NCBI GenBank assembly: GCA_021734785.1
Contig: JAIPIF010000001.1
Coordinates: 1-64,000, forward strand
DNA length: 64,000 nucleotides
Direction: 5' to 3'
Source: Candidatus Altimarinota bacterium
GTDB lineage: Bacteria > Patescibacteriota > Gracilibacteria > UBA4473
Shown here: one piece after another, positions 20,579 through 24,966 of the stretch
Position numbering within the stretch: position 1 is the first letter of the stretch
Layout of the letters: each line of letters begins with the position of its first letter
Program-made: the position numbers and the translations under genes
The notes under the pieces: generated by a model
Told to the model about the DNA's origin: nothing
Database searches by the model: none
Seen by the model: the letters and a program-made list of their open reading frames with translations, nothing else

Positions 20579-23500
20579 TTATTCTTCCGTATGGGGCGTT
20601 GTCTCCACTTCTGCTTTCTTGGTCAATTTGAGGCGCATCTGGTTTCCTTCGATCTCCAGCACCTCTCCGTCTTCGAAATGGCCTTCCGAAACTTTGAGCG
20701 CGAGCACTTCCTCTGAAATCTTTTGCGAAAACTCTGCAAAAACGCTCCTGAGGTCTTCTGAGACTGTGCAAAAGTCTACGACGATCCGATCGGTGAGGGC
20801 AAACCCCTGGTCTCGGCGCTGCTCCTGAATCGCTCGAATAATCTCTCGCGCAATCCCCTCCAGCCGAAGGGCTTCATTGATCTCGGTATCCAGCAAGACA
20901 ACCGCTGTCGCAGACCCTTCTGCTTCGACCCCTTCGGTCGTGACAAATCCAAATTCAAACTCTTCCGGCAAAAGGGTCTCTCTGGCAATAATGACGCTGC
21001 CATCTTCTTGGAGAGAAAATTCTCCGCTTTTTCCCATGCGGATAACCTCCTGAACCTTCTTCCCAAGCTTTTTGCCAACCATTCGCGCGTTGACTCGCAC
21101 GACCCGTCTCGCAACTTTTTCCAGCTGCACCTCAGACAAAAGTTCTACCGATTTCACATTGGCTTCGGCCTGAATGACAGACCGGTCGAGCGAAATTTTT
21201 TCGGTGGTGAGAAACTGAAGTTTGGGAAGCGGCTGACGAAGCTTGATCTGTTTTCTCGCACGAATTTTTGCCGCCAGTGCCACAATCTCTCGCTCAAGAG
21301 CGACTTTTCTCTCAAGCGCTGGCTGCAGGAATTGCTGCTGGGGGTGGGGGAAAAATGCCAGATGGACAGAGTCTCCCGCCCCAAGATTTTGAAAAATCTG
21401 TTCCGCGAAAAAAGGACACACGGGAGCCAAAATTTTGGAAAAAGTCAGCAGCAGGTAGTGAAGCGTTTCATACGCTTTTTGCTTGTCTTCCTCGAGTCCC
21501 TCCGCCCAAAACCGCTGGCGACTACGACGCAGATACCAGTTATTGAGCTGATCAATCAACGGTGAAATTTCACGAAGTGCACCCTCTAAATCGTACACGT
21601 CCATCTTTTTGCGAAACTCTTGCAATGACTCCTGAGAGACAGAAAGAATCCACTGATCGAGTTCATTTTCGGGCTGCGGAAGCGGAAACCGGCGCTTGGC
21701 TTCGGCGGTTCGAGCCATCGGAATAAAGAGCAAATCTTCCCGAGCGGTAATCCCGTTGAGCACGGCATCAGCGGCACGGATCGTGGCTCCGTGGCTGATC
21801 ACGACAATCGTTTTGCCCGGATATTTTTCCCCCATTTCTCTGAGAAATTCTCGAACGCGTTTTTGCAATTCTTCCGGCGACTCGGTGGTGGGGTTTGCCA
21901 TTCGCAGCGGACTGGAAACCATTTTCTTTCCTTCAAGATCGCCAAAGGAGAGCTCTCGCACGCGCTCATCGGTCATTATTTTTCCAGAGAATCCGGTTTC
22001 TTTTTTGAGAATTTCAGCGGTTTCTTGTGTCCGAATAAACGGAGAGGCAATCATCAGATCAAACGCTCCGAGTTTTTGAGCCACTTCTTTTGCCTGGGCT
22101 TTTCCGGTCTCGGTCAGGTGGTGTTTTTTGCTCCGGTCGCCGGAGTAAATTCCTGCAACATTGTGATCGCCCTCTCCGTGCCGAACAAAAATAAATTTCG
22201 TTGGCTTCCATCGGTCGACATTGGCGTAGGTCGAAAAAAACTGGTACGCGTTTTTGAGCGGCAAAATAACCTGCTTGAGCACCTCCTCCACTCCCTTTTC
22301 GGTGAAACGAAAATTTTCGCCGCGCACCACCGGAGAGGAAAGCAGATAGTACCGCATGGCATCCGCCCCGTACTGGTCGAAGATGAGCTTGGGATCCGGA
22401 TAGTTTTTCTTTGATTTCGACATTTTGTGCCCGTCCTCCGCCAGCACGATTCCATTGGTCACTACATTTTTGAAAATATTTTTGCCAAACAGCGCACACC
22501 CCAAGACATGTAGCGTGTAAAACCATCCCCGCGTCTGGTCGAGCCCTTCGGCGATGAAATCGGCAGCGGGAAAGTCGAGCGTCTGTTCTGTCTTTTCGGC
22601 TTGTCCGGAATCAGTCGGTGGCTGTATCTTTTTTCCAAGCGGCACAGAGTCTTTGTCATGCGAAAAATCTCCTTCCCAAAAGTCCGTTTCGTATCCGTTT
22701 TTTTGGTAAAATTTAACAGCCTTTGGGTTGGCATTAAAAACAATTTCTCGCACCCCCTGATCCACTGCCCAATATTCCAGTTTTTGCAACACCCCACTTC
22801 CCACCCCTTGTCCCTGAAAAGACTGTTTAACGGCAAAGTTCCAAAGAAATGCTCGTTCTTTTTTTTGTGGATCAAGTTCTATTCTGCCAGTTGCCACGGG
22901 AATCCCTTTTTGGGAAAACAAAAAAGCAGTGCCCTGCTGAAAACTCTCGTGATCCGGATTATAAGGAACTTCTGAGCGAAATTTGTCGAAAATTTCTGTT
23001 TTCAGAATATTATGAAAATTCTTCCAGTCTTCATCTGTCTTCACCTCTCGTACTTCGACATCCTTTTGTTGTTCAAACGGAAAATGATTGGACGCATACG
23101 GCATTGCGCCGGATTCAAACCAGCAGTCGAGCACTTCCGGGATGCGGGTCATCGTCCCATCACATTTCGAGCAGGAAAAATGCAGCTCATCCACAAAATG
23201 TTTGTGGAGATCCGACACTTTCTTTCCGGTCAATGTTTCGAGCTCCGCACGCGAGGAAACCACGACCAATTCGCCACATTTGTCACAGCGCCACACCGGG
23301 ATCGGCGCCCCCCAGTACCGATTCCGAGAGATCGCCCAGTCGGGAGCGTCGGCAAGCAACTTGCCAAATCGGCCATCTTTGAGATGCTCGGGCACCCAGT
23401 TGATTTCCTGGTTTTTGGCCAGCATCGTGTCTTTAATTTTTTGAATGTTGACAAACCAGGTCTTGACCCCGCGGTACATCAGTGCGCAATCCGTACGCCA

Positions 23501-24715
23501 GCAGTGCGGATAGGAGTGGGTGACCGATTCTTTTTTCCAGAGCTTGTCGCCCAGATTTTTCAAAACCCAGTCGTTGGCGTTGTCTTCGAGCGAGCCAGGC
23601 ACCTCGGGATCATCCCGGAAATATTTTCCGGCAAGGGGGGGAATGGTCTCATCAAAAAATCCGTGGTCATCAAATGGGTACACCAGCGGAATGCCAGCCG
23701 CGCTCAAAATACGCGCATCATCCTCCCCGGTCGGCGCGATGTGGACGATGCCGGTCCCGTCTTCGTCGGAAACGTACCCATCCCCATGAATCTGGTGCAC
23801 ATTCGGCGCCAGGTCGGCAAAGAAATCAAACAGAGGCACGTATTTTTTGCCGATCAATTCTTTGCCTGGAATTGTCTCAAGGATTTCAACCTCGGCTTGG
23901 TTTTTCTTTCCGAAGACTGCCTCGACCAAACTTTGACCGAGAAGGAACTGTTCGCCATGAAATCGCACGCGAACGTACAAAAGCTTGGGATTCACGCAGA
24001 GACCAAGATTCGACGGCAGCGTCCACGGCGTGGTCGTCCACGCCAAAATCGATGTCTGCGGATCATCGACAAGCGGAAACTTGAGGGTCACCGCCGGGTC
24101 GGAAATATCTTTATAATTCAGGTTTGCCTCAAAATTTGAGAGGGGCGAGCCGAGCTTGGGAGAATACGGAATGACTTTTTCGCCTTCGTAGATCAGGTCC
24201 TTCTTCCAGAGTTCTGAGAAAACCCACCACACCGACTCCATAAATTCCGGGTCCATGGTTTTGTAGTCGTTTTTGAAATCCACAAACCGCCCCATCCGCT
24301 CGACGGTGTGCTCCCACTCATCGGCACACCGCATGACGACCGACCGGCAGAGTTCATTAAATTTTCCCACGCCCATCTTTTCGATACCGGGTTTGCCGCC
24401 AATTTTGTGCTCTTTTTCCACCTGAAATTCGACCGGAACCCCGTGACAGTCCCAGCCCCACTTGCGTTCCACGCGGTACCCTTTCATGGTCCAGTACCGG
24501 GGAATGACGTCTTTGATGGTGCCCGCCAAAATGTGCCCGTAGTGCGGAGTGCCCGTGGCAAACGGTGGCCCATCAAAAAACCGAAAACTATGATGCGGCC
24601 CTCGATATTCCAGCGTTTTTTCAAAAATACGCTCTTTTTTCCAGTGGACCAGGATTTCTTCCTCCAGCTGGGCAAGGGTTTTTTGGGGATTGGGTTGCGG
24701 AAAATGAGGTTTCAT
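20579..24715 (-). CDS. ileS: Isoleucyl-tRNA synthetase with inserted GNAT and histidine-phosphatase domains
   Basis: The product is 1378 residues, some 300 longer than usual. The class I core is complete: HIGH as HYGH (58-61), KMSKS (764-768), the CP1 editing domain (WTTTPWTLPSN), zinc CDKC/CSKC (477-518) and the anticodon-binding C-terminus. DGPPFATG and LDCWFESG are of the eukaryote-like type. Insert one, about residues 551-705, is a GNAT acetyltransferase with motif A NFAVKQSFQGQGVGSGVLQ and the NANPKAVKFYQKNGYE end; it sits between HFPFE and FPAADFIAEGLDQTRGWF. Insert two, about 838-1012, is a histidine phosphatase: FVRHGEGD (H846), SPFIRTQETA (R895), RELSFGDLEG, ISHGATIR (H975). Both are in frame at loop positions. 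The start at 24715 follows a promoter and T-box-like leader. It converges on purH with a 16-base gap. Confidence 0.95.
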   Translation of the reverse strand: MKPHFPQPNPQKTLAQLEEEILVHWKKERIFEKTLEYRGPHHSFRFFDGPPFATGTPHYGHILAGTIKDVIPRYWTMKGYRVERKWGWDCHGVPVEFQVEKEHKIGGKPGIEKMGVGKFNELCRSVVMRCADEWEHTVERMGRFVDFKNDYKTMDPEFMESVWWVFSELWKKDLIYEGEKVIPYSPKLGSPLSNFEANLNYKDISDPAVTLKFPLVDDPQTSILAWTTTPWTLPSNLGLCVNPKLLYVRVRFHGEQFLLGQSLVEAVFGKKNQAEVEILETIPGKELIGKKYVPLFDFFADLAPNVHQIHGDGYVSDEDGTGIVHIAPTGEDDARILSAAGIPLVYPFDDHGFFDETIPPLAGKYFRDDPEVPGSLEDNANDWVLKNLGDKLWKKESVTHSYPHCWRTDCALMYRGVKTWFVNIQKIKDTMLAKNQEINWVPEHLKDGRFGKLLADAPDWAISRNRYWGAPIPVWRCDKCGELVVVSSRAELETLTGKKVSDLHKHFVDELHFSCSKCDGTMTRIPEVLDCWFESGAMPYASNHFPFEQQKDVEVREVKTDEDWKNFHNILKTEIFDKFRSEVPYNPDHESFQQGTAFLFSQKGIPVATGRIELDPQKKERAFLWNFAVKQSFQGQGVGSGVLQKLEYWAVDQGVREIVFNANPKAVKFYQKNGYETDFWEGDFSHDKDSVPLGKKIQPPTDSGQAEKTEQTLDFPAADFIAEGLDQTRGWFYTLHVLGCALFGKNIFKNVVTNGIVLAEDGHKMSKSKKNYPDPKLIFDQYGADAMRYYLLSSPVVRGENFRFTEKGVEEVLKQVILPLKNAYQFFSTYANVDRWKPTKFIFVRHGEGDHNVAGIYSGDRSKKHHLTETGKAQAKEVAQKLGAFDLMIASPFIRTQETAEILKKETGFSGKIMTDERVRELSFGDLEGKKMVSSPLRMANPTTESPEELQKRVREFLREMGEKYPGKTIVVISHGATIRAADAVLNGITAREDLLFIPMARTAEAKRRFPLPQPENELDQWILSVSQESLQEFRKKMDVYDLEGALREISPLIDQLNNWYLRRSRQRFWAEGLEEDKQKAYETLHYLLLTFSKILAPVCPFFAEQIFQNLGAGDSVHLAFFPHPQQQFLQPALERKVALEREIVALAAKIRARKQIKLRQPLPKLQFLTTEKISLDRSVIQAEANVKSVELLSEVQLEKVARRVVRVNARMVGKKLGKKVQEVIRMGKSGEFSLQEDGSVIIARETLLPEEFEFGFVTTEGVEAEGSATAVVLLDTEINEALRLEGIAREIIRAIQEQRRDQGFALTDRIVVDFCTVSEDLRSVFAEFSQKISEEVLALKVSEGHFEDGEVLEIEGNQMRLKLTKKAEVETTPHTEE

Positions 24716-24931
24716 ACAACGGGGAAAAACAATGTTTACGAGCATCCCATATGCACAGGACGGTACCAGCTCGTTTCCCCGGCAAGAAAGCGGGACGGCT
24801 TATTTTTGCAGCTGACGAGCCACGCACCGGCGGAGTCTACTCTTGAAGACAATTTCTTTCCGCTCCCGCCCCGCCAGAGCGGGAGTTGTGGTGGATAGCC
24901 ACTCAACGGGATTTGCACAGACCAAAAGAAC
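24716..24931 (-). ncRNA. T-box-like riboswitch leader of ileS (candidate)
   Basis: The leader runs about 216 nt from the predicted transcription start to the ATG. Near its end, on the minus strand, is a T-box antiterminator/antisequestrator fold: helix A1 CGAGC (24773-24769) with GCTCG (24743-24739), a seven-base bulge TGGTACC (24768-24762), and helix A2 GTCC (24761-24758) with GGAT (24747-24744). There is no 3' bulge. The UGGU in the bulge would pair with an ACCA tRNA end, as expected for tRNA-Ile. An outer stem CGGGGAAA/TTTCCCCG (24781-24774 with 24727-24720) closes it four bases before the start codon. A GC-rich hairpin is at 24863-24885. Stem I and the specifier loop are not resolved by eye. 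Confidence 0.55.
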
Positions 24932-24937
24932 GCTCGG

Positions 24938-24966
24938 ACTCTACCCCAGTCCCCGCCGAACGTCAA
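24938..24966 (-). promoter_or_regulatory. Promoter of ileS
   Basis: Minus strand: -35 TTGACG (24961-24966), 17 bp spacer, -10 TAGAGT (24938-24943). It lies directly after the end of the MgtC-like gene, so ileS is transcribed independently with a long leader. Confidence 0.6.

Follow-up and report, generated by a model that had tools for sequence, protein, structure and literature searches.

The ileS locus and its leader

The window, namely the whole stretch of 64,000 nucleotides analyzed here, belongs to a genome of approximately 1.06 Mb from the Patescibacteria (CPR), and carries on its minus strand an ileS gene of clear identity (tRNA-synt_1, E 7e-137) whose AUG lies at 24715-24713. An in-frame upstream start at 24745 was rejected, because it falls inside the antiterminator described below and the starts of the relatives lie 3' of theirs. 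Inserted into the encoded IleS are a GNAT acetyltransferase domain (residues 591-685) and a histidine phosphatase domain (residues 852-1000); NCBIfam holds a family for IleS with GNAT, and the phosphatase insertion is without explanation.

The promoter from which an earlier note on this DNA had derived a 216-nt leader was found in place as a sigma-70-like TTGACG-17-TAGAGT with 9 of 12 matches. In the relatives, a comparable -10 element precedes a conserved, start-like GYUCUUU by about 6 bases, at nearly the same spacing as in the window, and GYUCUUU itself stands 20-25 nt 5' of Stem I. This agreement supports a putative transcript start at 24931, and hence a predicted leader of 216 nt (24931-24716). 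The start sequence GYUCUUU (24931-24921, minus strand, in the window; leaders of genomes G001-G017) is conserved in the family and is often able to form a tiny hairpin. The features of the locus, all on the minus strand, are as follows.

24938..24966 (-): promoter, -35 TTGACG at 24966-24961, 17-nt spacer, -10 TAGAGT at 24943-24938; predicted start near G 24931
24738..24911 (-): whole T-box element; leave-out model E 1.8e-23, covariation
24864..24911 (-): Stem I, base UCCCG/CGGGA, 24911-24907 with 24868-24864; helix 1, paired in 92% of cells
24888..24902 (-): specifier hairpin GUGG-CUAUCCA-CCAC with 7-nt apical loop; helix 2, paired in 97.5% of cells, with compensatory changes at 3 of 4 pairs
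24894..24896 (-): specifier codon AUC (Ile), invariant in the family, complementary to anticodon GAU
24869..24885 (-): additional hairpin b, CUCCCGC-UCUG-GCGGGG, which turns Stem I into a three-way junction
24830..24863 (-): Stem II with S-turn motifs AAGAAA (24858-24853) and GUAGA (24840-24836); helices 3 and 4, compensatory changes at all 9 pairs
24808..24829 (-): Stem IIA/B pseudoknot, CGG 24829-24827 with UCG of the F-box UCGUCA (24818-24813); helix 5, 100% paired
24777..24794 (-): Stem III, CCCGC...GCCGGGG, seen in the sequence; similar hairpin in G001, G002 and G006
24738..24774 (-): antiterminator (A1, bulge, A2); sequence, covariation, leave-out model
20579..24715 (-): ileS, with inserted GNAT and histidine-phosphatase domains

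The A1/TGGTACC/A2 module recognized in the earlier note directly 5' of ileS was confirmed at that place. A1 comprises six pairs (ACGAGC 24774-24769 with GCUCGU 24743-24738) and is followed by the bulge UGGUACC (24768-24762) and by A2 (GUCC 24761-24758 with GGAU 24747-24744), which has no opposing bulge. The base of A2 in the window is a G-U wobble, as in T-boxes, where this wobble is regarded as the main sensor of the amino acid (review PMC7583486). The corresponding pair is G-C in 12 of the 13 family members, in which respect the family departs from the actinobacterial type, and in 50 of 92 elements.

Stem I, which had escaped the same inspection by eye, is present at 24864-24911 as an ultrashort stem carrying AUC in its apical loop, and the guess that the fold could be of a divergent, shortened type was thus borne out. 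At the position of hairpin b, the leaders examined from the window's family (f1) have a hairpin of other sequence; elsewhere in the phylum it is often absent, and it is present in some members outside the family. In many relatives, the specifier helix has GA/RA flanks compatible with a K-turn; those of the window are GA and AA, with hairpin b in addition, and the base 3' of the specifier is C instead of the usual purine. For Stem II, the GAA and UAGA motifs are conserved in the family, which is evidence at the sequence level, the three-dimensional shape of the S-turn being predicted only. Stem III is flanked by AAUAAG on the 5' side, an inexact fit to the RRRxG motif, and by AAA on the 3' side, where T-boxes have AA.

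Conservation, covariation and model searches

Plain folding was uninformative for the window leader, which folded no better than its shuffles (z -0.91) and whose minimum-energy fold retained the A1/A2 module and lost Stem I. The DNA upstream of ileS was compared across the nearest genomes. The TGGTACC module was found just 5' of ileS in 12 genomes of the window's family as well as in G021 and G038 from other families, and a model search added G005, so that the conservation of the A1-bulge-A2 module among relatives, on which the earlier note had staked its reading, holds in 13 family genomes. The element was absent in three family members having an ileS start (G004, G014 and G018).

Ten of the family leaders could be aligned end to end. 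They share, from 5' to 3', the base helix of Stem I, a hairpin with a 7-nt loop always containing AUC, hairpin b, Stem II, the pseudoknot CG(N)/F-box, sometimes Stem III, and A1-bulge-A2. Across these ten, 94.5% of the cells designated as paired could pair, in comparison with 74.9% in shuffles and 35-52% when the partners were slid by 1-3 columns. Compensatory changes were observed at 24 of 35 pairs, with a covariation score of 0.64 against 0.26 for the control, and one position of the pseudoknot displayed five pair types (C-G, G-C, A-U, G-U and U-G).

Since the consensus structure was drawn on the same alignment that was scored for covariation, a covariance model that leaves out the genome in question constitutes a fairer test. 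Such a model (R2), built from the leaders of eight relatives with both the window genome and its sister (G001) excluded, gave a single match in the 64-kb window, at 24738-24911 on the minus strand (97.9 bits, E 1.8e-23), and the next match in the whole window genome reached only E 5.9; the E-values of this model and of R1, described below, are rough. Within 64 kb, a helix of six pairs and a motif of eight bases may occur by chance alone, and the RT-5 model weakly matches here as well, so that a mere chance likeness of one short hairpin to an antiterminator was considered. Both the leave-out match and the 24 pairs with compensatory changes refute this view, which can practically be dismissed.

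The general T-box model of Rfam (RF00230; gathering threshold 93 bits) did not match the window even at E 10. The lack of a covariance-model hit had been named in the earlier note as a result that would refute its proposal, and to that extent the proposal failed its own check. We read the miss as a limit of the model rather than as evidence against a T-box, because RF00230 describes a long Stem I. On other leaders of the class, RF00230 gave E-values from 7e-10 to 1e-3, all under its cut-off; these include long-Stem-I T-boxes before thrS (L031 and L032, 47-48 bits) and weaker matches before trpS and glyS. As a separate observation, L031, L032, L034, L035 and L038 are long-Stem-I or other T-box candidates with RF00230 scores of 23-48 bits, located before thrS, trpS and glyS. 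The match of RT-5 (RF03026), which overlies the T-box at E 0.15 and reaches half the model's cut-off, was dismissed as chance.

Agreement of the specifier with tRNA and target gene

The tRNA-Ile(GAU) of the window genome ends in ...GCCCACCA, having A as the discriminator base and an encoded CCA. Thus AUC, whose third base is C as looked for in a T-box specifier, is complementary to the GAU anticodon and UGGU to the ACCA end of the tRNA, and the suggestion that U at the variable position of the bulge suits the A discriminator of tRNA-Ile was substantiated by the genome's own tRNA.

As the covariance model R1 was trained on all ten leaders, and hence solely on AUC/ileS leaders, its matches before other genes provide a fair test of the specifier. 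A fixed region of each R1 match was scanned for hairpin loops, with shuffles as control. An AUC-A loop was found in 52 of 63 ileS leaders and a GUC-A loop in 2 (5.6 and 4.7 predicted from shuffles), whereas the valS leaders showed GUC-A in 18 of 21 and AUC-A in 1 (2.1 and 1.9 predicted). The window, G002, G011 and G017 are among the scan's misses because the base after their AUC is C or U. By eye, the specifier of the lysS leaders was AAG, and those of two aspS leaders of the non-discriminating type were AAC and GAC. These non-discriminating AspRS genes (L290 and L037) come from different genomes, and one of their T-boxes reads AAC (Asn), the other GAC (Asp).

Several AUC elements seemingly without ileS head short operons that include it. 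In L241-L247, L250 and L252-L255, one to several small genes lie between the AUC T-box and ileS, such as MazG-like, NUDIX-like and CYTH-like ones (identified by eye), and TGA is recoded in some of these genomes. In L248, an AUC T-box precedes an ilvA-like threonine dehydratase gene, followed by a RidA-like gene.

All testable features identify the leader as a T-box, apart from its score with the Rfam model and the lack of a terminator in the window copy. On the basis of its anatomy, covariation and specifier-target agreement, which together uphold the T-box plan originally claimed, we conclude with high confidence that ileS is controlled by a T-box riboswitch in its leader, which reads tRNA-Ile; that the tRNA binds and that the switch responds to its charging are inferences. 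Synthetase genes in general can have autoregulatory leaders, and the site is missed by RF00230; both facts would also be compatible with a protein-binding RNA or a peptide attenuator merely resembling a T-box. The invariant features, however, are precisely those of T-boxes (specifier, S-turn, F-box and UGGN-ACC), and the specifier shifts with the target gene, which neither a protein-binding nor a peptide leader predicts. Such an RNA is therefore very unlikely.

For the T-box, the following mechanism is proposed. AUC in the apical loop of the tiny Stem I would pair with the GAU anticodon of tRNA-Ile, and Stem II together with the IIA/B pseudoknot would brace the codon-anticodon duplex. With uncharged tRNA, the 3' ACCA may pair with UGGU of the bulge and hold A1/A2 together, allowing ileS to be expressed; with charged tRNA, the bulge could not be bound and the competing form would win.

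Output step, distribution and relation to known T-boxes

To define the competing form, the region 3' of A1' was inspected. A terminator-like hairpin with a U run was present there in 82 of 101 elements, versus 31% in shuffles, and the hairpin overlapped A1' in 68 of the 101. All 12 other leaders of the window's family have a terminator (G003 and G005 as judged by eye and folding). Judged by sequence, the competing form in the family and in most of the phylum would thus be a transcription terminator, often overlapping A1'. The presence in most copies of a terminator competing with A1 indicates that an ultrashort Stem I is coupled here to the control of transcription.

In contrast, no credible terminator was found in the window leader, where the matching stretch is unfolded (0.0 kcal/mol) and the weak site flagged by the script lies inside the antiterminator. 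The output step in the window's species is therefore unsettled. The leader could still be a T-box whose output is translational in this species, or whose switch is decaying, a real possibility that we hold only tentatively. In its favor, the window leader stands alone among the 13 family leaders in having no terminator. GGGGAAA on the 3' side of Stem III is, moreover, complementary to UUUUUCCCC just before the ileS AUG, and this pairing could mask the start region; in the A1-formed state, folding prefers GGGGAAA:UUUUCCCC over Stem III by about 2.3 kcal/mol. However, no Shine-Dalgarno-like sequence was found before the ileS AUG (24715) of the window, leaving none to be masked, and the complement of GGGGAAA is not kept in the sister genome G001. 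The pairing is also compatible with A1, and because the two coexist it is not a clean competitor.

Judged from published descriptions, the T-box of the window resembles the ultrashort ileS T-box of actinobacteria (Nocardia farcinica and Mycobacterium) in having AUC in the apical loop, Stem II with an S-turn (AGA), a IIA/B pseudoknot and no tRNA-elbow module (PMC7583486, PMC10651847). An apical-loop specifier is characteristic of short Stem I's (PMC7583486). AUC occupies nucleotides 16-18 from the base of Stem I in the window, and the corresponding N. farcinica bases are numbered C18 and A19; the F-box UCGUCA is close to CCGUCA of N. farcinica (PMC7583486). Unlike the known actinobacterial elements, which act on translation via Shine-Dalgarno masking, most relatives of the window have a terminator, and family f1 has hairpin b in Stem I.

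With the classical transcriptional T-box of Firmicutes (RF00230), the element shares Stem II/IIA/B, Stem III, the control of a synthetase gene and, in the window's relatives, A1-UGGNACC-A2 competing with a terminator. It differs in that its Stem I is not long and has no double T-loop elbow module, in that it scores below the RF00230 threshold, and in that the specifier lies in an apical loop rather than a side bulge. The thrS leaders L031 and L032 come from the same class of organisms and share the UGGN-ACC bulge and a synthetase target, but are not of the ultrashort type, having apical AGAGA-like and GUGAAA-like motifs. The elements of Patescibacteria thus appear to combine an actinobacterial-type aptamer plan with a Firmicutes-type expression platform.

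At E <= 0.01, R1 had matches in 79 of 353 genomes of the window's class, in 87 of 380 from a sample across the phylum Patescibacteria, and in none of 40 genomes from other phyla. Across the class and phylum sample, the element precedes ileS, valS, lysS and aspS genes; Parcubacteria GW2011_GWA2_40_23 (L156) is an example outside Gracilibacteria. T-boxes have been described as chiefly a feature of Firmicutes that also turns up in a few other phyla (PMC2494555; for contiguous T-boxes, PMC12452182), and the class II model of TBDB was run on genomes of actinobacteria and on those class I hits whose Stem I is truncated (PMC7778990). In the open-access papers searched, we found no T-box described for Patescibacteria/CPR, including Peregrinibacteria, Saccharibacteria, Parcubacteria and Gracilibacteria; paywalled papers, preprints and the hit lists of Rfam and TBDB were outside our reach, and a prior notice beyond this search is possible.

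A long Stem I with an elbow-binding module is generally required in transcriptional T-boxes, and most translational ones have an intermediate or ultrashort Stem I (PMC7583486); an ultrashort Stem I combined with a transcription terminator is thus thought unusual. We consider it probable that ultrashort-Stem-I T-boxes controlling transcription termination form a family spanning the phylum Patescibacteria and break the usual link between ultrashort stems and translation, with Stem I forming a three-way junction in the window's family. With such elements, the claimed need of transcriptional T-boxes for contact with the tRNA elbow can be put directly to the test. Their commonness in reduced, host-dependent Patescibacteria suggests that amino acid supply is sensed there through tRNA charging, and their broad distribution is relevant to the question of whether the T-box is of ancient origin or has been transferred between lineages. 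A covariance model for the ultrashort variant would annotate many leaders that are now missed.

In L083 (G002), L156 and L096, palindromic repeats have apparently been inserted into variable loops of the T-box, as exemplified by CCTCGCACCTCAGGATGACAATG in L156.
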